DNA of 41,026 bases, from the NCBI GenBank assembly GCA_017889635.1, contig JAGGAC010000045.1, forward strand, positions 1 to 41,026, read 5' to 3'. The first letter of the stretch is position 1. Each line of letters opens with the position of its first letter. Source of the DNA: Bacillota bacterium. GTDB taxonomy: Bacteria; Bacillota; Negativicutes; Sporomusales; CTSoil-080. The position numbers and the translations under genes are program-made. This document shows, piece after piece, positions 1,177 through 39,138 of this stretch. The notes beneath the pieces are model-generated. The model ran no database searches. It worked only from the letters and a program-made list of their open reading frames with translations, and was not told where the DNA came from.

Positions 1177-1295
1177 GGATTATACGGTTTATTTTTTAGA
1201 AATATAGCCTGGATAAAGGAGATTTCTACCTATCATGGCGAAATAATAAATTGTTACCAGGATATAACTAACCGCCAAAGGAGGTGGTTAAGACT

Positions 1296-2189
1296 ATGCT
1301 TGATGTGAAACAGCTGGCTGATGAATTTGAGTTTGAAGTCAAAGCTGGTGAAAACGGTTTAACAAAAGAGATTACTGAATATACATTAAAACGTCCCAGT
1401 GCAGAATTGTTAGGCTATTTAACTTATTTGATGCCTCAACGTATTCAAATTTATGGTCAGACGGAGCTTGGGCTTTTACAAGAACTTGATATCAGAGGAA
1501 TGCAGATTAATTTGGGCCAGGTACTGGTATCTGAAGTGCCTTGTGCAATATTTACACGAGGCTTGCAGGTTCCTAATGAAGTTCTTGAACTTGCAAATGA
1601 ACGAAATATTCCGGTGCTTTCGACAACTAGGTCGACAACTCAATTGTTTTATTTATTGATTCGTTATCTTACAAATAAATTAGCGCCAAGTACGTTGATT
1701 CATGCTGTATTGGTCGATATATACGGTGTAGGGGTGCTGATCACCGGTGAGAGCGGAATCGGAAAAAGTGAAACAGCCTTAGAGTTAATTAAAAATGGGC
1801 ATTTATTGGTTGCCGATGATGCTGTGGAAGTAAGGCGGATTGATGAAGACAGTATTCGTGGAAGTGCGCCAGAGAATATTCGCCACTTACTTGAGGTGCG
1901 CGGCCTAGGGATCATGGATGTAACTCAACTGTTTGGTACAGGCGCTGTACGGGATGAGAAAGATATCCAGCTGATTGTTAATTTGGAAGAATGGCAAGAT
2001 GGGAAAATGTATGATCGACTTGGCATTGATCCACCGCCAACTCGCGAAATTTTAGGTATCAGTGTGCCGGAAATGACTATTCCGGTCCGACCTGGGCGAA
2101 ATTTAGCTAACATTATTGAGGTAGCGGTGATGAAAAATCGGCTACGGACATATAAGTTCAACAATTTACCTGGTTTATTGCGTGACTAA
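1296..2189 (+). CDS. hprK: HPr kinase/phosphorylase
   Basis: Bifunctional enzyme that phosphorylates or dephosphorylates the regulatory serine of HPr, the master signal of carbon catabolite control in Firmicutes. The 297-residue protein has the usual length. It shows the P-loop GESGIGKS at about residues 151-158 after DIYGVGVLIT, and the HprK signature region RGSAPENIRHLLEVRGLGI. An upstream in-frame GTG at 1284 lies inside the ribosome site AAAGGAGG (1277-1284), so the ATG at 1296, 11 bases beyond it, is the better start. It heads a co-directional cluster that includes its substrate HPr. The next gene starts 13 bases after its stop. Confidence 0.96.
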   Translation: MLDVKQLADEFEFEVKAGENGLTKEITEYTLKRPSAELLGYLTYLMPQRIQIYGQTELGLLQELDIRGMQINLGQVLVSEVPCAIFTRGLQVPNEVLELANERNIPVLSTTRSTTQLFYLLIRYLTNKLAPSTLIHAVLVDIYGVGVLITGESGIGKSETALELIKNGHLLVADDAVEVRRIDEDSIRGSAPENIRHLLEVRGLGIMDVTQLFGTGAVRDEKDIQLIVNLEEWQDGKMYDRLGIDPPPTREILGISVPEMTIPVRPGRNLANIIEVAVMKNRLRTYKFNNLPGLLRD

Positions 2190-2202: not shown

Positions 2203-3057
2203 GTGAGTGACGAAAGTTATGTTGTAAAAAAAGCATTAAATAATAATGCAGTAGTTGCCTTTGATCAAGGACGACGGGAAGTAATTCTCAGCGGCAAAGG
2301 CATTGGTTTTCAGTGCGCTAAGGGAGATATCATACAACGCAATCCAAATATTGAAAAGGTTTTTGTACTGACATCTGAAGGTGAGCGCGAGCAGATGCTA
2401 AGGCTCTTTGTCGAGAATGATGAAGGCGTCATGCGAGTTGTTACTGAATATGTGCACTATGTTGAAAAGCAACTTGAGGGGACTTTATCTAACCATTTTT
2501 TGGTTGCCTTAATAGATCATCTTGCTTTTGTTATTAAACGCCTGCAGCAAGGAGTAAATATTAACAATCCGTTTTTATATGATGTACGTATTCTTTATCC
2601 GCAGGAATATGCCTTGGCGCAAGAAGGAGTAGCTCTTTTGCAGGAACGGCTAAAGATTGCCATTCCGGAAGATGAAACGGCCTTCCTGGCCCTGCATCTT
2701 CATTGCGGCAGGATCAAACGGAATCTTAGTCAGATGAACCGATTTAATGATTTGATTGCCAAGCTAATTCGGATTATTGAAATGGAATTGGTCTTGGAAA
2801 TTGATAAAACTAGTTTGGATTATGCCAGACTGCTGACCCATATCCGCTTTGTGATAGAGCAGGCTGAAAGCCGGCTTCCATTTGAACGCGAAAGTCGTTT
2901 GAGCAAGGTATTGCAAAGGGAATATCCGATATGTTATAATATCGCCTGGAAGTTAGTGAAAATTTTACAAAATGAATTGAGTGCAGATATTCCTGAAACT
3001 GAGGCTGGTTATCTCACACTTCATCTTCAGCGAATAGTGGAACGTTCAAAGGACTGA
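2203..3057 (+). CDS. glcT: BglG/SacY-family transcription antiterminator, GlcT-like
   Basis: RNA-binding antiterminator of 284 residues. An N-terminal co-antiterminator RNA-binding domain (about 1-60, containing AVVAFDQGRREVILSGKGIGF) is followed by two PTS regulation domains (about 70-165 and 172-284). The conserved PRD histidines that PTS proteins phosphorylate are visible: His106, His165/167, His213 and His274. Translation starts at GTG 2203 behind AAAGGGTG. The target is very likely the RNA site 11 bases downstream of this gene, because that site overlaps a terminator in front of a glucose-type PTS gene. The GlcT assignment rests on that site and on the context; other BglG-type specificities cannot be excluded from the protein alone. 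Confidence 0.85.
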   Translation: MSDESYVVKKALNNNAVVAFDQGRREVILSGKGIGFQCAKGDIIQRNPNIEKVFVLTSEGEREQMLRLFVENDEGVMRVVTEYVHYVEKQLEGTLSNHFLVALIDHLAFVIKRLQQGVNINNPFLYDVRILYPQEYALAQEGVALLQERLKIAIPEDETAFLALHLHCGRIKRNLSQMNRFNDLIAKLIRIIEMELVLEIDKTSLDYARLLTHIRFVIEQAESRLPFERESRLSKVLQREYPICYNIAWKLVKILQNELSADIPETEAGYLTLHLQRIVERSKD

Positions 3058-3067
3058 ATACTTTTAA

Positions 3068-3098
3068 TCGTGTGACTGATTCGATCAGGCATGAGTGA
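3068..3098 (+). promoter_or_regulatory. Ribonucleic antiterminator (RAT) site for the GlcT-like protein
   Basis: The stretch GTGACTGATTCGATCAGGC followed by ATGAGTG has the features of a BglG-family RAT hairpin, and resembles, as I recall it, the RAT ahead of Bacillus ptsG. Its 3' part (GGCATGAG) is also the left arm of the following terminator, so the two folds exclude each other. Bound protein would block termination and allow expression of the IIBA gene. Confidence 0.8.
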
Positions 3099-3145
3099 AT
3101 TTCTTAAGGGGCAAAATACCTTGAGAATATTGCTCATGCTTTTTT
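3089..3145 (+). terminator. Conditional terminator controlled by the RAT
   Basis: GCATGAG (3089-3095) pairs with CTCATGC (3133-3139). The inner arms TTCTTAAGG (3101-3109) and CCTTGAGAA (3119-3127) also pair. TTTTTT follows. It lies between glcT and the IIBA gene. Confidence 0.85.
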
Positions 3146-3169
3146 GATGCTTTCCTAAAGGAGAACATT

Positions 3170-3955
3170 ATGGATGATGACTTTAGCAAAAAAGCGCGGT
3201 CTAATTTCCTTGATAGCACAGCCTCAGATGTTGTTATTGCGTTCGGTGGACGCGAGAACATAAAGACCGTTGACGCCTGTATTACTAGGCTTCGGGTAGC
3301 TGTAAAGGATTCTTGTCTGGTTGACAAGGCTCGTTTAAAACAGTTAGGGGCTGCCGGGGTTTTTGAGGCCGGGAACTGCTTTCAGGCCATATTTGGACTA
3401 AAAGCAGATTCGTTGAAAGAGCGAATTCAGAAAATTATAGTCATTGGAGATGTTGCACCGTCTGTATCAAATCAACCTAAGCGGGACCATAAATTTGCAG
3501 GCGAAACTGGGAGACATTTCATTTATGCACCGCTTTCTGGGACTGTGATAAATTTAGCTGAAGTGCCTGACAAGATTTTTGCTGAGAAACTTATGGGTGA
3601 TGGTTTTGCTATTATGCCTACAAGTGATCTTATTTGTTCGCCTATTAAAGGCTCTGTGGTTCAGTTTTTCCATACGCGGCATGCAATAGTGCTTGAAGGC
3701 GGCGGTTTGGAGGTGCTCATCCATGTAGGGATAGACACTGTGAAACTTGGCGGAGCTGGTTTTCACCCACTAGTTAAAGAGGGTGAAGAAGTAGATATTG
3801 GTACTCCGCTTCTGGAAGCGGACTTTGGCTTTATCAGCAAATATGCAAAATCTATTGTTACGCCAATTATCTTTACGCAGTTTCGGGGGAAAACTTTAAA
3901 GGTAACTAATACTATGGCTGTAGCCGGACAAACAATAGTTTGTACGGTTTGGTAA
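3170..3955 (+). CDS. PTS glucose-type EIIBA protein lacking a IIC domain
   Basis: Phosphotransferase component of 261 residues. The N-terminal IIB domain carries the phospho-cysteine motif DACITRLRV with Cys37. A linker (about 92-115) leads to a glucose-type IIA domain (about 116-261) with both active-region histidines, His171 (TRHAI) and His185 (LIHVGIDTV). PtsG/NagE relatives also have a membrane IIC domain of about 350 residues; none is present here or nearby, and no membrane segment is seen. Start ATG 3170 follows AAAGGAG. Expression is probably controlled by the RAT and terminator just upstream. It may serve a IIC encoded elsewhere or act as a phospho-relay or sensor. Confidence 0.88.
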
Positions 3956-4008: not shown

Positions 4009-4266
4009 ATGGAAAAATCAGTTGTAATTAAGAATCCTACAGGTTTACACGCTCGTCCGGCAGCACTGCTTGTTCAGAAGGCAAGTTCATTTCGCTGTAA
4101 TGTCAGTTTGGTTAAGCAAGGGAAAAAAGCAAATGCTAAAAGTATTATGAATGTGATGGCTTTAGGGGTAGGGCAAAATGATGAAGTGCTTGTTGTTACC
4201 GAAGGCGAACAGGAGGCAGAAGCACTGCAGGCGATTGTAGAGTTATTGGAAGGGCTTAAAGACTAA
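4009..4266 (+). CDS. ptsH: Phosphocarrier protein HPr
   Basis: Small cytoplasmic phosphocarrier of 85 residues that passes phosphate from enzyme I to EIIA domains. The active-site motif TGLHARPAA contains His14, and the regulatory motif AKSIMNVMALGV contains Ser45, the residue expected to be phosphorylated by the kinase encoded at 1296. The ribosome site is weak (AAAGG, 14 bases before the ATG). ptsI begins 17 bases after its stop, so the two general PTS genes are co-transcribed. Confidence 0.97.
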   Translation: MEKSVVIKNPTGLHARPAALLVQKASSFRCNVSLVKQGKKANAKSIMNVMALGVGQNDEVLVVTEGEQEAEALQAIVELLEGLKD

Positions 4267-4283: not shown

Positions 4284-6020
4284 ATGGAATGTAAGGGTAT
4301 AGCCGCTGCCTCTGGTTATGGTTTAGGCCGGGCCTTTTTGCTGGAAGACCAAGAAGTCCGGGTAATAAGACAGACTATTTCTTCGGATGCTGTTGATCGC
4401 GAAATAGCACGACTGGAAGAGGAAATCCGCCAAGCCATTGCCGAGCTTGAAACGGTGCGGGATACTGCCAGGCAAAAACTTGGCGATGACGCCGCTGCTA
4501 TTTTTTCGGCTCATATTATGATGCTAGAAGATCCGGAATATCTTGGCGGGATTATCGAAAAGATTAAACAAGCGATGATTAATGCCGAAGCCGCAGTTGA
4601 GGAAGTGACAGCAGAGTTTGTTGCGATATTTTCCGGAATGGATAACGAGTATATGCGCGAGCGGGCCGCTGATTTAAAAGATGTAGCTGGCCGTCTGCTG
4701 CGGCGTCTGTTAGGAATAAAAACGATGTCCTTGGCGGATATTGCCGAAGAGGTTGTCTTGTGTGCGCATGACTTAACCCCATCAGATACTGCGCAGCTCG
4801 ATCGTGACAAGGTTGCCGGGTTTGTGACTAATATCGGTGGGCGAACTTCTCATTCGGCGATTATGGCCCGGTCAATGGGCATTCCGGCTGTTGTTGGCCT
4901 CAAAGATATTGTCACGAAAGTTAAGGCCGGGGATTTTGTCATTGTTGATGGCAATGAAGGCAAAGTATTGGTTAATCCGCCGGAAGGTATTATTCAAGAG
5001 TATCGCGCGAAAAAGGAAAAGTTTGCGGCCCGTCAACGTGAATTTGAAAAACTGCTTAATGAAAAGTCGATAACTAGCGACGGAGTTCAGGTAGAGCTCG
5101 CAGCCAATATCGGCAACCCTGAAGATGCCAAGGGAGCGATAACTAACGGCGCCGAAGGGGTTGGCTTGTATCGTACTGAGTTTTTATATATGGGAAGAGC
5201 TGAATTTCCATCAGAAGAAGAGCAGTTTAAAGCCTATAAAGAAGTCGCGATGCTGTTTGGCAAAGAGCGACCTGTGGTTATTCGAACCCTTGATATTGGC
5301 GGCGACAAGGAACTGCCTTATCTAGAAATGCCGAAAGAAATGAATCCGTTCTTAGGCTATCGAGCTATTAGGTTGTGTCTTGATCGGCCGGAAATATTTA
5401 AAACTCAGCTTAGAGCCATTCTTAGGGCCAGCGCTTACGGAAAAGTCAAGATGATGTATCCAATGATCGCTACATTGCAGGAACTTCGGGCTGCTAATGC
5501 CATTTTAGCAGAGGTCAAACAGGAGCTGTCCAAAGAGAACATTAGTTTCAATCCGCAGATGGAAGTTGGGATTATGGTTGAAATTCCAGCGGTTGCAGCA
5601 CTGGCGCATCAATTTGCCAAGGAAGTGGACTTTTTCAGTATTGGAACAAATGATTTAGTTCAGTATACTTTGGCGGTTGACCGGATGAATGAAAAAATCT
5701 CTTATCTTTATCAGCCATTAAATCCATCGGTATTAAGTCTGATTCAGAATGTTATTTCCGCAGCGCATAACGAGAAAAAATGGGTGGGAATGTGCGGCGA
5801 AATGGCTGGCGATTTGACGGCTATCCCGATTTTATTGGGGATGGGGCTTGATGAATTCAGTATGAGTGCGAGTTCAATTTTGGCCGCACGGGCCTTAATC
5901 CGCCAATTATCCAAGGCCGACGCTGTTGATATCGCCCAGGCAGCGCTGAAAATGGATGATGCGGAAGCTATAAAGGCTTATGTTGAGCAAAAGGTTTCAT
6001 TCATTGCTGGGCTTAAGTAG
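4284..6020 (+). CDS. ptsI: Phosphoenolpyruvate-protein phosphotransferase (enzyme I)
   Basis: Starts the PTS phosphorelay by moving phosphate from PEP to HPr. The 578 residues match the family length. The N-terminal HPr-binding and phospho-His domain ends in GGRTSHSAIMARSMGIPAVVG, with active-site His190. The C-terminal PEP-binding barrel shows EGVGLYRTEFLYM, the IGTNDLVQYTLAVDR region and the catalytic-cysteine motif MCGEMAGD. Start ATG 4284 has a good ribosome site (AGTAGGAGG). pfkA begins 15 bases after its stop, an unusual linkage that joins the PTS to glycolysis. Confidence 0.97.
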   Translation: MECKGIAAASGYGLGRAFLLEDQEVRVIRQTISSDAVDREIARLEEEIRQAIAELETVRDTARQKLGDDAAAIFSAHIMMLEDPEYLGGIIEKIKQAMINAEAAVEEVTAEFVAIFSGMDNEYMRERAADLKDVAGRLLRRLLGIKTMSLADIAEEVVLCAHDLTPSDTAQLDRDKVAGFVTNIGGRTSHSAIMARSMGIPAVVGLKDIVTKVKAGDFVIVDGNEGKVLVNPPEGIIQEYRAKKEKFAARQREFEKLLNEKSITSDGVQVELAANIGNPEDAKGAITNGAEGVGLYRTEFLYMGRAEFPSEEEQFKAYKEVAMLFGKERPVVIRTLDIGGDKELPYLEMPKEMNPFLGYRAIRLCLDRPEIFKTQLRAILRASAYGKVKMMYPMIATLQELRAANAILAEVKQELSKENISFNPQMEVGIMVEIPAVAALAHQFAKEVDFFSIGTNDLVQYTLAVDRMNEKISYLYQPLNPSVLSLIQNVISAAHNEKKWVGMCGEMAGDLTAIPILLGMGLDEFSMSASSILAARALIRQLSKADAVDIAQAALKMDDAEAIKAYVEQKVSFIAGLK

Positions 6021-6995
<975 letters not shown>

Positions 6996-7109: not shown

Positions 7110-8477
7110 GTGACCAAGGAAATAGCCTTTGATTATTCCTATGCACTGCCTTTTATTCAAAAAGAAGAGCTTTTAAGGATTGAATCACAGGTTTCTTTGG
7201 TGCATGAGAAATTGCATCAAGCAACCGGAGCAGGTAATGATTATTTGGGTTGGTTGGACTGGCCTGTAAACTATGACCAAGAAGAATATGCGAGAATAAA
7301 ACAGGCCGCGGCTAAAATTAGCGCTTCATCAGATGTACTGATTGTCATTGGTATCGGTGGTTCATATCTTGGTGCTAAAGCAGCATTAGAAATGCTGAAT
7401 CATACTTTCTATAATCAACTGCCAAAAGATAGACGAAAAACACCGGAAATATATTTTTTGGGACACCAGCTTAGCTCAGCCTATTTGGCCAATCTCTGGG
7501 ATATATTAGAAGGAAAAGATATTTCGGTTAATGTAATATCGAAGTCTGGCACAACGACTGAGCCGGCTGTTGCTTTTCGGTTTGTTCGTGAATATATGGA
7601 GAAAAAATACGGCAAAACCGGAGCCAAGGAAAGAATATTTGCCACAACCGACTGTAAGCGCGGCGCTCTGAAGCAAATGGCGGATGAAGAAGGTTACGAA
7701 ACTTTTGTTATACCTGATAATGTAGGTGGAAGATTTTCTGTTTTAACTGCTGTTGGCTTACTTCCTATCGCTGCGGCTGGCATTGACATAGATCAAATAA
7801 TGGCTGGAGCCAAAATGGCTCGTGAGCTATATGGTAAAGCTTCAATTGATAGCAACCCATGTTACCAATATGCTGCTGTTCGTAACCTGTTTTATGCTGA
7901 AGGAAAAACGATAGAACTCTTAGTTAACTATGAGCCGTCGCTTCAATATTTTGCGGAATGGTGGAAACAACTGTTTGGTGAAAGCGAAGGCAAAGAGCTG
8001 AAGGGCATATTTCCGGCGGCAGTTGGTTTTACTACCGACCTTCATTCAATGGGGCAGTATATCCAGGAAGGAAAACGGAACTTGTTTGAAACGGTGTTGT
8101 GGGTAGCGGATAATGGACCGGAAAAAATCGTTAATGAAGAAACGAAGAATCTCGACGGGTTAAATTTCCTGGCAGGAAAAAGCCTCCAGTTTATTAATCA
8201 GCGGGCGATGGAAGGAACTGTGCTGGCCCATACCGATGGTGGTGTGCCTAATCTTATTATTCGGGTACCAAAGCTTGACGCATATTATTTTGGCCAGTTA
8301 GTGTATTTTTTCGAAAAGGCCTGCGGAATAAGCGGCTATCTTTTAGGAGTAAATCCTTTTAACCAACCAGGGGTTGAAGCTTATAAGAAGAATATGTTTG
8401 CTCTTCTTGGCAAGCCTGGTTTTGAGAAGGAAAGACAAGCGTTAGAGCTTAGACTGAATAAGCAAACTGCTGAATAG
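7110..8477 (+). CDS. pgi: Glucose-6-phosphate isomerase
   Basis: Interconverts glucose 6-phosphate and fructose 6-phosphate. The 455 residues fit the Firmicute form, shorter than the enterobacterial one. Motifs include [25 protein letters not shown] and the sugar-binding [17 protein letters not shown] 7110 is placed 7 bases after GGAGGG. It lies between pfkA and pyk in the same direction. Confidence 0.96.
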
Positions 8478-8505: not shown

Positions 8506-10257
8506 GTGAAGAAAACGAAAATAGTCTGTACGGCCGGGCCTAGTACCGACAAGCCCGGAGTTTTTGAAAAAATGCTGGCTGCTGGGATGAATGTGGTCAG
8601 ATTTAATTTTTCGCACGGTTCGCATGAAGAGCAAGCCGGGCGGATTGATATGGCCAGGAAAGCTGCAGCTCAAAGCGGCAAAAATATCGGTCTATTACTT
8701 GATACTAAAGGACCGGAAATGCGGCTGGGGAGATTTGCTGCAGGCAAAGTTACTCTTACTGCCGGAGCAACTTTCATTCTTACCGGAAAAGAAGTTAATG
8801 GCGACGAAAATATGGCGTCAGTAAGCTATTCTGAACTTCCTAAGGAAGTAGCGCCAGGGAATTTTATTCTACTGTCTGACGGGTTAATTAGTTTGAAAGT
8901 AGAAAAAGTAGAAGGCGATAAAATCGTTACTACTGTTCAGAACAGCGGGCAAATTAGTGATCTAAAACGCGTAGCCGTTCCAGGGGTAGGTATAAAACTG
9001 CCCTTTTTGTCTGAACGTGATGAGGCCGATATTTTGTTCGGGGTCGAAAAGGACATGGACTTTATTGCGGCGTCTTTTGTTCAGCGCGCGGAGGATATCC
9101 TAGCTATCAGAAAAGTGCTGGAGTCTGCCGGGGCGGCAATGGACATTATCGCCAAAATCGAAAATGCCGAAGGGGTCAAGAACATTGACGAAATTCTTAA
9201 AGTTGCGGACGGAGTAATGGTTGCCAGGGGCGATCTGGGGGTAGAAATACCAGCCGAAGAAGTGCCGTTAATTCAAAAACAACTTATCGAGAAATGTAAT
9301 AAGGCTGGAAAACCGGTCATTACTGCCACTCAAATGCTGGAGTCAATGACTGCTAATCCCCGTCCCACAAGAGCCGAGGCAAGTGATATTGCCAATGCCA
9401 TATTGGATGGAACCGATGCAATAATGCTGAGCGGTGAAACTGCATCAGGCAAGTATCCGGTGGAAGCTGTCGAAACTATGGCCAGAATTGCGATACATAC
9501 TGAAGACGCGTTAAATTATGGCTGTATATTACAGAGCAAGGGAATTGGCGGGCACTCTACCACTACTAATGCTATCAGCCATGCTACTGTACAGGTATCA
9601 CACGAACTTGGGGCTGCGGCAATTATTACTGCGACCCAGTCGGGTTATACTGCGAGAATGGTTTCTAAATACCGGCCAAACGCGGCAATTGTAGCCGTAA
9701 CTCCATTGGAAAAAACGTTGCGGCGGTTGACTCTTCTGTGGGGTGTTCATCCTTTGCTTGGCGGAGACTCGGCTGACAGTGATAAAATGGTAACTGAAGC
9801 GGTTGCTGCGGCGTTGACGACACAATATGTTAAAGAAGGGGATCTGGTGGTTATTACTGCTGGTTTGCCGGCGCGTATGTCCGGGACAACGAATATGATT
9901 CGGGTGCATACTGTTGGCAATATACTTGTGCGCGGTGTCGGTATTGGACAGAACGCAAAAACCGGTAAGGTTTGCTTGGCAGTAAATGGCCGCGATTTGG
10001 CGCAGCGGTTTCAGTCAGGCGATATTCTGGTGGTCAGCGGTATTGATGACGAAACAGCTGGTTATGCTGCCAAAGCAGCGGCAATTGTAGCCGAAGAGGG
10101 CGGTCTAACTTCACATGCGGCAATAATTGGCATTAGTTATGGTTTGCCTGTAATTGTCGGGGCGGATGGGGCTACCAACCTTCTAACCGATGGCATGGTA
10201 GTAACGGTCGATGCGGCCCGTGGGTTAGTATATCAGGGAGAAATTAACGCAAGATAA
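8506..10257 (+). CDS. pyk: Pyruvate kinase with C-terminal PEP-utilising domain
   Basis: Last step of glycolysis, PEP plus ADP to pyruvate plus ATP. Its 583 residues are longer than the E. coli enzyme because an extra C-terminal domain is present (about 500-583, with GGLTSHAAIIGISYGLPVIVG), as in Bacillus and Geobacillus pyruvate kinases. The core shows TKIVCTAGPST, IAKIENAEG, ARGDLGVEIP and TATQMLESM. Start GTG 8506 follows GAAAGGCGG. It ends the sugar cluster and is followed by a strong terminator. PEP connects it with enzyme I upstream, since both use that substrate. Confidence 0.97.
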   Translation: MKKTKIVCTAGPSTDKPGVFEKMLAAGMNVVRFNFSHGSHEEQAGRIDMARKAAAQSGKNIGLLLDTKGPEMRLGRFAAGKVTLTAGATFILTGKEVNGDENMASVSYSELPKEVAPGNFILLSDGLISLKVEKVEGDKIVTTVQNSGQISDLKRVAVPGVGIKLPFLSERDEADILFGVEKDMDFIAASFVQRAEDILAIRKVLESAGAAMDIIAKIENAEGVKNIDEILKVADGVMVARGDLGVEIPAEEVPLIQKQLIEKCNKAGKPVITATQMLESMTANPRPTRAEASDIANAILDGTDAIMLSGETASGKYPVEAVETMARIAIHTEDALNYGCILQSKGIGGHSTTTNAISHATVQVSHELGAAAIITATQSGYTARMVSKYRPNAAIVAVTPLEKTLRRLTLLWGVHPLLGGDSADSDKMVTEAVAAALTTQYVKEGDLVVITAGLPARMSGTTNMIRVHTVGNILVRGVGIGQNAKTGKVCLAVNGRDLAQRFQSGDILVVSGIDDETAGYAAKAAAIVAEEGGLTSHAAIIGISYGLPVIVGADGATNLLTDGMVVTVDAARGLVYQGEINAR

Positions 10258-16228: not shown

Positions 16229-17599
16229 TTATTTTATTGTGCCCATTGCTTTATCAAGCTGTGCTCGACTGGTGTTGTAATCATAGAGGGCTTGAATATA
16301 GTTGGTTTTGGCCTGGATCATTGCCAGTTCAGCATCAATTACGTCAAGGTTGGTGCCAACGCCGGCTTCATAGCGTTCCTGGGCCAATTTGTAATCGGTT
16401 GCGGATTGATGGACTGCTACCTGGTTGTTGGTAATGCGTTCAGCGGCTTCCTGTACGCTGAGATAGGCCTGGCAAACTTCCAGTGAGACTTTATCGATTA
16501 ACTGGCGGGTTTGTTCCTGGGATTCGGTTACCTCATGTTTGGCCTGCTTGATTTCGGTTTTGGTCAGGCCGTTATCAAATATATTAAACTGAACGTTTAC
16601 GCCAACCAGCCAGCTGTTTTTGCCTTTACTGGTAGATGGGGCAGTGTCAGTCCAGGTTTCGGTACCAACTAAGGCTACGGTCGGCTTATTGCCGCTGTCG
16701 GCAATTTTCACTTTATCGTTGGCCATGGCAATTTTCAGGTTTGCCTGAGCCATTTCCGGACGGTTTTTTAAGGCGACAGCTATGCTATCGTCAACCGTTG
16801 GGGTGTAGGGCTTGTAGCTGAATTTATCGGCCAAGGTTGCTTCATTGTGCAGTGACAAGCCGATGACCTTGTTAAATTTGTAGCGGGCCATTTTATAACT
16901 GTTTTGAGCTTTGATGAGATTGTTGCGGGCATTGGCCAGCCGGACCTGCGTTTGCAACACATCAGATAAAGACACTGTACCGGCATCATAATGATTTTTG
17001 ACATTCTTAAGATGCGCGTTTAGATCATTCACTGCTTGGCTGGCAACATCTTCTAAGTTGCGGGCCTGCAGCACAGTGAAATAAGATGTGGTTACATCCA
17101 TGGTAAGCTGCTGTTTAGCTGAGGTGGTGCCAAGATCGGCCGCAGCGGAGCCGTGCTTGGCAAGATTAATGCTGTTTTCTATTTTACCGCCGGTATAGAC
17201 TGGCAGGGTCAGTTTTAATTGGTGCTGGTAAGCATTATAAACTTTGGTCCATTCGGGGTAGTCGATCAGGACATTATTACTACCGTTGAAGTAGTAGGAG
17301 TATGGGTAAGTTGTAGTGGTATTATTGTACCAGGAGGCAGGGGTGTCGGTGCGGGCCAGGGTATAATTATATCCTAAGGACAAGCCATTGTAGGCGCGGG
17401 CTTTGTTGACACTCCAGGCTGCTTTTTCCTGGTTGGACTGGGCAATTTTCATGGCCGGATTATTTTCCAGAGCTAGAGCGATACTGTCAGAAAGGGTTAA
17501 GGTTTTCGGGTCAGGTTCGGCATGCACTGGCTGCATTGCCGCTGTCATAAGTACGGCTGACAGGAGCAGGCTCATGCAATATTTATTGTAGCGGTTCAT
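16229..17599 (-). CDS. TolC-family outer membrane efflux protein
   Basis: A 456-residue outer-membrane channel. A signal peptide (about 1-27, cleaved near VHA) precedes the duplicated outer-membrane-factor repeat: LTLSDSIALALENNPAMKIAQSNQEKA near the start and TVDDSIAVALKNRPEMAQANLKIA in the second half, each followed by long coiled-coil helices. Late in the protein, AQERYEAGVGTNLDVIDAELAMIQAKTNYIQALYDYNTSRAQL is characteristic. Start ATG follows AGGAGG. It is the last gene of the minus-strand efflux operon and forms the exit duct for the upstream adaptor and permeases. A two-hairpin repeat lies between it and the permease gene. Confidence 0.92.
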   Translation of the reverse strand: MNRYNKYCMSLLLSAVLMTAAMQPVHAEPDPKTLTLSDSIALALENNPAMKIAQSNQEKAAWSVNKARAYNGLSLGYNYTLARTDTPASWYNNTTTTYPYSYYFNGSNNVLIDYPEWTKVYNAYQHQLKLTLPVYTGGKIENSINLAKHGSAAADLGTTSAKQQLTMDVTTSYFTVLQARNLEDVASQAVNDLNAHLKNVKNHYDAGTVSLSDVLQTQVRLANARNNLIKAQNSYKMARYKFNKVIGLSLHNEATLADKFSYKPYTPTVDDSIAVALKNRPEMAQANLKIAMANDKVKIADSGNKPTVALVGTETWTDTAPSTSKGKNSWLVGVNVQFNIFDNGLTKTEIKQAKHEVTESQEQTRQLIDKVSLEVCQAYLSVQEAAERITNNQVAVHQSATDYKLAQERYEAGVGTNLDVIDAELAMIQAKTNYIQALYDYNTSRAQLDKAMGTIK

Positions 17600-36260: not shown

Positions 36261-36380
36261 AGTCTTAGATTCAAATGTTTGTGAATTGAAAAAATAACAT
36301 GTGGGGTATTGAGTTTAGTGTAAGTGTACTGTACAGGAATGTAAGCAAATTGATAGGCAATGAAAAGTAGGGGTGTCAGT

Positions 36381-37841
36381 ATGCAGAAGCATATCGCGGT
36401 GGATATTGGGGCATCAAGTGGTCGCCTGGTACTGGGAACGCTTGAAGATGGCCAAATCAAATTGGAAGAGTTATATCGCTTCGATAATTCAATTGGTGAA
36501 ACGAACGGAAGCTATTTTTGGAATATTGACAAATTATATCAGGAAATTATTAAAGGATTACAGGCGGCTAAAGCAGCCGGTATTGAAGAATGCACGCTGG
36601 GGTTTGACACATGGGCGGTAGATTATGTGTTGGTGGATGAGAACGGAAATAGAGTGCAGGAAGTCTACGCCTATCGGGATGACCGTACTAAAACGGCGAT
36701 CGAGGAAGTAGCGCAGCATATATCACTTAATGAGATTTATCAAAAAACCGGCATTCAGTTTTTAAGCTTTAATACGTTATTTCAGCTCTATGTACATGAT
36801 AAAGCAGAACTGGCCAAAGCCCACAAAATATTACTTGTTCCTGACTATTTATATTATCTTTTTTCCGGAAAGTATGTTAACGAAAAAACCAATGCCTCTA
36901 CTACTCAACTTCTAAATCTGGCAACTAAAGATTATGATGAAGATTTATTGAAGCTGGTGGGGGTGCGGCGTGAGCAATTTGCCGAATTAACTGAGCCTGG
37001 TCAAAGTCTGGGGCCGATCTTGGAGAAACTGCGGATTAAGTATGATTTGCCGCGGTGTGAGCTAATTTGCGTGGCTTCGCATGATACGGCTTCAGCCGTT
37101 CTGGGGGTACCGGCGGTTGAGGAACATTTCGCTTATCTGAGCAGCGGGACATGGTCGTTAATTGGTTTGGAGAACACTGCGGCGATAGCGAATGAAATGT
37201 CTTATCAAAACAACTATACTAACGAATGGGGCGCTTACGGGACTTACCGTTTCCTGAAAAACATCATGGGACTGTGGATGATTCAGGAGGTTCGCCGCAA
37301 TCTAGGCAATTATTATTCGTTTGCTGATCTTGTTGTGGAAGCAGAAAAAGCTGTGCCCTTTAAGTTTTTGGTTGACTGTAATAATGAACGGTTTCTAAAT
37401 CCGGAAAGTATGATCAGGGAAATTCAGAATTATTGCCGTGAAACCGGGCAAGGGACTCCGGAGTCGGCAGGAGAGTTAGCAAGATGCATCTTCGACAGTC
37501 TGGCGCTAACCTACCGCCTGGCACTTGAAGAAATTTGTTCAATTGCTGGTTGCCGGGCAGGGTGCCTTCATATTGTTGGCGGCGGCGTGCAAAACGAGTT
37601 GCTTTGCCAGCTAACTGCCGATGTTGCTCAAACTGCGGTAGCTGCAGGGCCTGTTGAAGCTACGGCGCTTGGTAATCTTTTGGTACAGATGATTAGTACC
37701 GGAGGGCTGAAAGATATAAAAGCAGCCCGAGAACTAATCATGGCATCTTTTGCGATAAAAATGTATCAGCCTGGCAAAATAGCCAATTTGGAGGCAGTAT
37801 ACCAAAATTTCCGGAGATTAGTAGCAAAGCCGATAGTTTAG
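36381..37841 (+). CDS. rhaB: Rhamnulokinase
   Basis: Phosphorylates L-rhamnulose to L-rhamnulose 1-phosphate. The 486 residues match the FGGY-family enzyme of E. coli (489). It shows the N-terminal phosphate loop AVDIGASSGRLVLG, the sugar-binding LGFDTWAVDYVLVDENG, the central CVASHDTASAVLGVP and YLSSGTWSLIGLE, and the C-terminal ATP-site IVGGGVQNELLCQLTAD. ATG 36381 follows AGGGG by 7 bases; the ATG at 36360 has no ribosome site. First gene of the rhaBAD operon. Confidence 0.95.
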   Translation: MQKHIAVDIGASSGRLVLGTLEDGQIKLEELYRFDNSIGETNGSYFWNIDKLYQEIIKGLQAAKAAGIEECTLGFDTWAVDYVLVDENGNRVQEVYAYRDDRTKTAIEEVAQHISLNEIYQKTGIQFLSFNTLFQLYVHDKAELAKAHKILLVPDYLYYLFSGKYVNEKTNASTTQLLNLATKDYDEDLLKLVGVRREQFAELTEPGQSLGPILEKLRIKYDLPRCELICVASHDTASAVLGVPAVEEHFAYLSSGTWSLIGLENTAAIANEMSYQNNYTNEWGAYGTYRFLKNIMGLWMIQEVRRNLGNYYSFADLVVEAEKAVPFKFLVDCNNERFLNPESMIREIQNYCRETGQGTPESAGELARCIFDSLALTYRLALEEICSIAGCRAGCLHIVGGGVQNELLCQLTADVAQTAVAAGPVEATALGNLLVQMISTGGLKDIKAARELIMASFAIKMYQPGKIANLEAVYQNFRRLVAKPIV

Positions 37842-37884
37842 AAGGACCAGAAAATATAAGTGAAAGAGAAGTGGGGCACTAAAT

Positions 37885-39138
37885 ATGGAAGCAAAGCTTG
37901 AAAAACGTTATCAAGAAGCTAAAGAAATATACGCCGGCTTAGGCGTGGATACCGATGCGGTATTGGCCAAGCTGGAACAAGTAAAAATTTCGTTGCATTG
38001 CTGGCAGGGGGATGATGTCCGCGGCTTTATTAACAATAAATCGTTATCCGGCGGTATTTCAGTTACCGGCAGTTATCCCGGAGCAGCCCGCACGCCTGAT
38101 GAGTTGCGGCAGGATTTAGAAAAGGCCTTGTCGCTTATTCCCGGCAAACATAAGATCAATCTGCATGCCATTTATGCCGATACCGATGAAGAAGTAGAAC
38201 TTGATAAGCTAAAACCACAGCACTTTGCCCGGTGGGTAGAGTGGGCCAAAAAAGAGGGCTTGGGGCTGGACTTCAATCCAACTTGTTTTTCGCATCCGAA
38301 GTTTCAAAATGGCCTGTCCATCAGCCATCCTGATGCTGATATCAGGAATTTTTGGATCAGGCATTGTCAAGCGTCCCGTAAAATCGGCGAATATTTCGGT
38401 AAAGAGTTAGGTCAGACCTGTGTGACCAATTACTGGTTCCCTGACGGATCTAAAGATATCCCGGTTGACCGTATGGCGCCGCGGAAGCGAATGAAAGCGG
38501 CTTTGGACGAGGTCTTTTCTGCTGACATTAATCCGGCGTACAACCTGGATGCTGTGGAAAGCAAACTGTTTGGCATTGGTGTAGAAAGCTATGTTGTTGG
38601 CTCACATGAATTTTGCATGGGTTATGCTTTGAAAAACAACAAACTAGTATGTTTGGATGCCGGTCATTTCCATCCGACCGAGACTATTTCTAATAAACTG
38701 TCGGCGGTAGCGCTGTTTGATACCGACATTTTGCTGCATGTCAGCAGGCCGGTGCGGTGGGACAGCGATCATGTAGTTATCATGGATGATGAACTGCAGG
38801 AAATTGCTCATGAATTGGTGCGCAACGATTTATTGGGAAAAACGCATATTGGACTTGATTATTTTGATGCCAGCATTAACCGGGTGGCTGCTTGGGTTAT
38901 CGGGGCCCGCAATATGATTAAGGCGCTGCTGCGGGCGATGCTTGAACCAACGGCGATGTTGGCGGAGGCAGAAGCAAATTTTGATTTGACAACCCGCTTG
39001 GCGATGCTGGAAGAACTGAAGTCTTACCCCTTTGGCGCGGTTTGGGACTACTACTCAGCGAAAATGGGTGTCCCGGTGCGGGAAGCCTGGTTGCAGGAAG
39101 TAAAACAATATGAAGCTGAAGTACTTAGCAAAAGGTAA
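37885..39138 (+). CDS. rhaA: L-rhamnose isomerase
   Basis: Converts L-rhamnose to L-rhamnulose with bound divalent metals. The 417 residues match the family (about 419). It opens with [41 protein letters not shown] and contains [36 protein letters not shown], the metal-site region [21 protein letters not shown] and [21 protein letters not shown]. It lies 43 bases after rhaB in the same operon; no transporter or mutarotase is seen within the window. Confidence 0.96.

Follow-up and report, generated by a model that had tools for sequence, protein, structure and literature searches.

The window (the whole stretch of 41,026 nucleotides analysed here) contains a GlcT-type antitermination switch placed between an antiterminator gene and a glucose-family PTS gene that encodes IIB and IIA domains but no membrane IIC domain. 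In our judgement the chances are somewhat better than even that this is a standard glcT-RAT-terminator-ptsGHI region with a ptsG minus IIC, and that the soluble IIBA reports general PTS phosphorylation to GlcT. That the switch works without a transport domain is plausible and, from the comparisons made here, the most likely reading, although unproven. The IIC-less GlcT/RAT locus is a variant of a known switch. No case of a natural EII without EIIC linked to GlcT was found in the open-access literature searched.

The genes follow the order hprK, glcT, switch, IIBA, ptsH, ptsI, pfkA, pgi and pyk (see table). The intergenic gaps are short as far as pfkA; that between pfkA and pgi is 114 bases and that between pgi and pyk 28 bases. 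Two genomes of the same order, G305 and G306, serve as the main comparison. HprK is 76% identical to that of G305, and pfkA also adjoins ptsI in G306, where it is 80% identical. An earlier note on this DNA had proposed that the switch controls only IIBA. This may be too narrow, as ptsH, ptsI and pfkA are the next genes on the same strand, separated by short gaps, and may be co-transcribed with IIBA.

Table. Features of the switch and of the surrounding gene cluster in the window
Feature	Coordinates	Strand	Basis
hprK, HPr(Ser) kinase/phosphorylase	1284..2189	+	TIGR00679, 355.8 bits, cut-off 240
glcT-type antiterminator (CAT-PRD1-PRD2)	2203..3057	+	PF03123 and two PF00874
Promoter-like TTGCAA-N18-TATAAT, TG before the -10, within glcT	2911..2940	+	10/12 match
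RAT (ribonucleic antiterminator), GlcT type	3069..3096	+	Core match to Bacillaceae, G305 and G314
Intrinsic terminator, left arm common with RAT	3087..3145	+	Fold, shuffle z, pairing across loci
Soluble EIIBA, glucose family, no EIIC	3170..3955	+	PF00367 and PF00358
ptsH, HPr	4009..4266	+	PF00381, TIGR01003
ptsI, enzyme I	4284..6020	+	TIGR01417, 742.7 bits
pfkA, 6-phosphofructokinase	6036..6995	+	TIGR02482
pgi, glucose-6-phosphate isomerase	7110..8477	+	NF010697, 718.9 bits
pyk, pyruvate kinase	8506..10257	+	TIGR01064, 605.4 bits

The best NCBIfam model for the glcT product is GlcT (NF047357, 306.9 bits), with LicT second (220.4 bits). The score is 13 bits short of the equivalog cut-off of 320, which is a naming threshold, and on this sequence match the protein is named GlcT-type and not as an equivalog. 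It aligns to 3RIO (CAT-PRD1 of a B. subtilis-type GlcT) and to the LicT PRDs, and the phosphorylatable histidines of both PRDs line up with those of Bacillaceae GlcT. Its CAT domain is the only one in the genome, and the protein is 64% identical to the GlcT of G305.

The switch itself sits between the glcT stop codon (3057) and the ATG of IIBA (3170). The RAT sequence, CGTGTGACTGATTCGATCAGGCATGAGT, has a core that agrees with those at Bacillaceae glcT-ptsG loci and is predicted to fold into a hairpin (-8.6 kcal/mol). The 3' half of the RAT (GCATGAG) doubles as the left arm of the terminator, whose overall stem (3087-3141) comprises an outer part (3087-3098/3130-3141) and an inner part (3101-3109/3119-3127), with a T6 run at its end (3140-3145). 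The computed fold of the terminator (3086-3142) is -27.3 kcal/mol. Over the 113 bases from 3058 to 3170 the minimum free energy is -36.9 kcal/mol compared with a shuffle mean of -20.8 (z -4.84), and none of 200 shuffles folds as well as the native sequence. The architecture is therefore that which the earlier note had described: a RAT-like sequence overlapping the left arm of a terminator with a T6 run, upstream of a PTS gene.

In an alignment of 11 loci the cells of the RAT hairpin and those of the terminator outer stem are both 98% paired. Covariation in the terminator stem is limited to one double change (G-C to A-U in Peribacillus), not above the level of shuffles, and the RAT is nearly invariant across loci, which makes its covariation signal weak. 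The evidence for the switch is sequence identity and pairing. Allowing up to 3 mismatches, a search of the genome with a 20-base RAT core gives a single site. With up to 2 mismatches, a slightly degenerate version of 21 bases matches 5 of the 380 genomes of the class (3 of them exactly), while its reversed control pattern has no match in the genomes listed. No Rfam family scores above its own cut-off at the switch (the bglG cis-element reaches 18.9 bits, with a cut-off of 80). A simple terminator scan did not call the terminator because the hairpin loop exceeds the length which the scan allows. At 3071-3076 the RAT of the window, like that of G305 (locus L061, 4894-4899), has GTGTGAC, whereas G306, G314 and almost all Bacillaceae have GTGTTAC. 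This one-base difference from the Bacillaceae RAT is located in the internal loop and might follow the CAT domain.

The switch RNA could start at the promoter-like site within glcT. The TATGYTATAAT portion of this site is found again in many Bacillaceae and in G305, but its conservation is ambiguous because the same bases encode conserved CYN residues.

IIBA is a protein of 261 amino acids in which PTS_EIIB and PTS_EIIA_1 are the only domains. PF02378 (EIIC) was not detected in it, so that the membrane domain of a PtsG-type EIICBA is missing, as the earlier note had recognised; with this domain content IIBA is by itself no transporter. Its sequence includes no hydrophobic membrane anchor. The active-site cysteine of EIIB and histidine of EIIA are present: Cys37, Arg40 and Arg42 (IIB) and His171 and His185 (IIA) are invariant among the 16 sequences compared. 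The AlphaFold model has a mean pLDDT of 82, with both domains mostly confident and the N-terminus and linker of low confidence. The gene has its own AAAGGAG just 5' of the ATG, and between this start codon and the terminator stem there are 28 bases.

We also searched for a cognate IIC elsewhere in the genome. Two proteins carry PF02378 and neither belongs to the Glc family. The first, judging by its neighbours (a family-4 glycosidase, a YdjC deacetylase and IIB and IIA of the lactose type), belongs to a chitobiose/cellobiose-type PTS; the second is a fructose IIBC beside a fructose IIA and a 1-phosphofructokinase. No Glc-family IIC was found in this PF02378 profile search, which did detect the Glc-type IIC in G305 and G306 as a positive control; the G305 IIC used as a query (a search with no positive control of its own) had no match in the genome. 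Loss of the cognate IIC thus appears well supported but is not absolute, because the genome is a draft of 152 contigs (99.2% complete). The same genome contains one PF00367 IIB, one PF00358 IIA, one CAT domain and one RAT, and GlcT is therefore the only evident client of IIB. We considered whether the IIA might serve IIA-less permeases; this was rejected since there is no other PF00367 IIB in the genome.

The relatives indicate how this arrangement may have arisen. In Bacillaceae the switch precedes the full transporter, as previously noted for Bacillus: the RAT loci fetched by IIBA similarity are followed by full IICBA frames of approximately 680-750 amino acids. The order is hprK-glcT-RAT/terminator-IICBA-ptsH-ptsI in G305 and glcT-RAT/terminator-IICBA-hprK-ptsH-ptsI-pfkA in G306, and in each the IICBA is the sole PF02378 IIC of the genome. 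Since both have the same switch before a full IICBA, the most likely and simplest history is that the window lineage lost IIC. Together with the absence of any other Glc-family IIC from the genome, this supports the earlier suggestion that the switch outlived the transport domain. Among the best matches in the 380 genomes of the class most are full-length frames, and the 276-amino-acid frame of the window is the only IIB-IIA form found at a GlcT/RAT locus; the inspection covered all but a few short frames on small contigs.

Frames of approximately 190 amino acids with a glucose-type IIA domain only are found in three other genomes of the class (G070:C14, G071:C90 and G081:C4). Two of these have no GlcT relative at E <= 0.001 and the third has a weak PRD-type match. 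Compared with these IIA-only genomes, retention of IIB along with IIA in the window fits a GlcT-directed role. Full-length HprK is present in 4 of the 28 genomes of the order (G001, G002 and G290-G314), namely the window genome, G305, G306 and G314, and in the first three of these hprK lies inside the glcT/pts cluster. This distribution suggests that the glcT/pts module moves or is lost as a unit.

Other parts of the window were also inspected. A broken frame with stops (837-1190), located between tRNA genes and hprK, resembles by eye the N-terminus of a methyl-accepting chemotaxis protein. In the segment 12260-17599 a lipid A acyltransferase gene precedes a gene of the chloramphenicol acetyltransferase family (PF00302), and an outer-membrane efflux protein is encoded at 16229-17599. 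The acyltransferase and the efflux protein point to a diderm Firmicute, probably one of the Negativicutes. An FGGY-family kinase gene and an L-rhamnose isomerase gene (36360-39138) probably form a rhamnose catabolic cluster.

According to the textbook model, GlcT responds to glucose since the sugar, on entering through IIC, draws phosphate away from IIB. GlcT of B. subtilis is phosphorylated on PRD1 by EIIGlc~P, which blocks antitermination at the overlapping RAT and terminator; when glucose is imported, the phosphate is drained and read-through can occur (PMC12445079). For the window we propose that the membrane IIC domain of ptsG was lost and that the remaining IIBA is soluble and translated on its own. 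EI and HPr, encoded in the same cluster, would phosphorylate IIA at His185; IIA would hand the phosphate to Cys37 of IIB, and IIB would phosphorylate PRD1 of GlcT. With a highly phosphorylated PTS, GlcT would be inactive, the terminator would form and transcription would end before IIBA. If HPr-His~P were drained by fructose or chitobiose uptake, by low PEP/pyruvate or by Ser-phosphorylation of HPr, GlcT would be unphosphorylated and would bind the RAT, blocking the left arm of the terminator. Read-through would then enter IIBA, ptsH, ptsI and perhaps pfkA. Since phosphate can pass in either direction between HPr, IIA and IIB, other PTS sugars, a low PEP/pyruvate ratio or HPr Ser-phosphorylation could still set the state of GlcT. 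The output of the switch would be the general PTS phosphorylation state and not glucose entry. Observed here are the sequences, the architecture, the fold potential of the RNA, the conserved residues, the failure to find a Glc-family IIC in the genome and the IIC present in relatives; RNA binding, phosphate flow, the direction of the response and the extent of read-through are the parts which we infer.

Relative-rate tests bear on both this relay and its alternatives. We compared the window with G305 using five Bacillales outgroups, which are themselves related so that the tests are not independent. Unique changes are approximately two- to threefold more numerous in the window IIBA than in that of G305 (35 against 17 at the lowest ratio, 33 against 11 at the highest; p 0.001-0.018). 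HPr and EI show no rate difference with any of the five outgroups, and GlcT shows no increase with four of them (the discordant one, L026, gives 29 to 8, p 0.0008). IIBA is also changed at 10 of 68 columns that are invariant in all the others, the most of any sequence compared. This pattern fits altered constraint after loss of IIC with the phosphotransfer chemistry preserved. It could also mean that IIBA is relaxing, which would count against the relay. In addition, as IIC no longer offers an outlet to sugar, IIB might remain in its phosphorylated form and keep GlcT inactive. Points in favour of the relay are the intact and conserved RAT and terminator, the retained catalytic residues, the aligned PRD histidines and the absence of consistent acceleration in GlcT, HPr and EI. 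Further points against it are that the IIC-less form was found in one genome only and that an engineered EIIBA without EIIC functioned poorly in B. subtilis (see below).

The main rival explanation is that the switch is vestigial, loss of IIC having left GlcT and IIBA with no signal and with parts that have yet to decay. IIB~P would be permanent or IIBA inactive, read-through would be constant and ptsHI would be transcribed mainly from other promoters. The faster evolution of IIBA, its altered invariant positions and its occurrence in a single genome are in keeping with this, as is the separate promoter of ptsHI in B. subtilis (PMC12445079). So is the poor function of engineered EIIBA: when cut from EIIC in B. 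subtilis, whether cytoplasmic or membrane-anchored, it gave no glucose growth, but this assay measured transport and not GlcT control (PMC6148471). However, the reading frame, ribosome-binding site, catalytic residues, RAT and terminator are all intact despite approximately 20 excess substitutions in IIBA, and the GlcT rate is raised with one outgroup only; we regard a vestigial switch as unlikely, although a real contender. It is less probable still that IIBA acts in trans with a membrane partner, either an unassembled Glc-family IIC or an IIC of another family, and still supports transport. Split EII systems exist and the draft assembly leaves some room for such a partner, but the profile that recognises the Glc type in the relatives finds lactose- and fructose-type IICs here and no Glc type, the G305 query (run with no positive control of its own) is without a match, and each of the two IICs is accompanied by an IIB and IIA of its own. 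An assembly misjoin between the terminator and the IIB region that removed the IIC coding sequence seems very improbable. The assembly is a draft and the genome is the only one of its kind in the comparison, but IIBA starts with its own AAAGGAG and ATG at a short distance from the terminator stem, the searches for IIC brought up no stray piece of a Glc-type IIC at another place in the genome, and the surplus of changes in IIBA points to a genuine shift of constraint.

The locus can be compared with several known systems. It shares with B. subtilis glcT-ptsGHI the order glcT, RAT/terminator, EII, ptsH and ptsI, the overlap of RAT and terminator and the CAT-PRD-PRD regulator, but differs in the EII without IIC, in hprK upstream and in pfkA, pgi and pyk downstream. 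The switch is also shared with G305 and G306, as are hprK, ptsH and ptsI, but these two genomes carry a full IICBA, whereas the IICs of the window genome are of the chitobiose and fructose types. Permease-less regulatory PTSs (the Brucella PTS, PMC2937029, and PTSNtr) would resemble the locus in having a phosphorelay without its own permease and a proposed role in regulation. However, these use Ntr/Man-type components, whereas the window has a GlcT-type RAT/terminator as the would-be output, and other PTS permeases remain in its genome. SacX/SacY of B. subtilis (PMC6148471) would be similar in that the EII is mainly a sensor for a PRD antiterminator, but SacX is a membrane EII sensing sucrose and the EII of the window has no membrane part.

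We put forward only tentatively, at rather less than an even chance, that the switch is now a transporter-independent sensor of global PTS phosphorylation in which IIBA relays from HPr~P to GlcT and tunes the HPr/EI/glycolytic cluster. A natural combination of GlcT, RAT and IIBA without IIC uncouples the relay from transport. Should this combination still be responsive, the switch would be able to read the general state of the PTS; if it is unresponsive, it would provide a clear example of a regulatory circuit surviving its signal.
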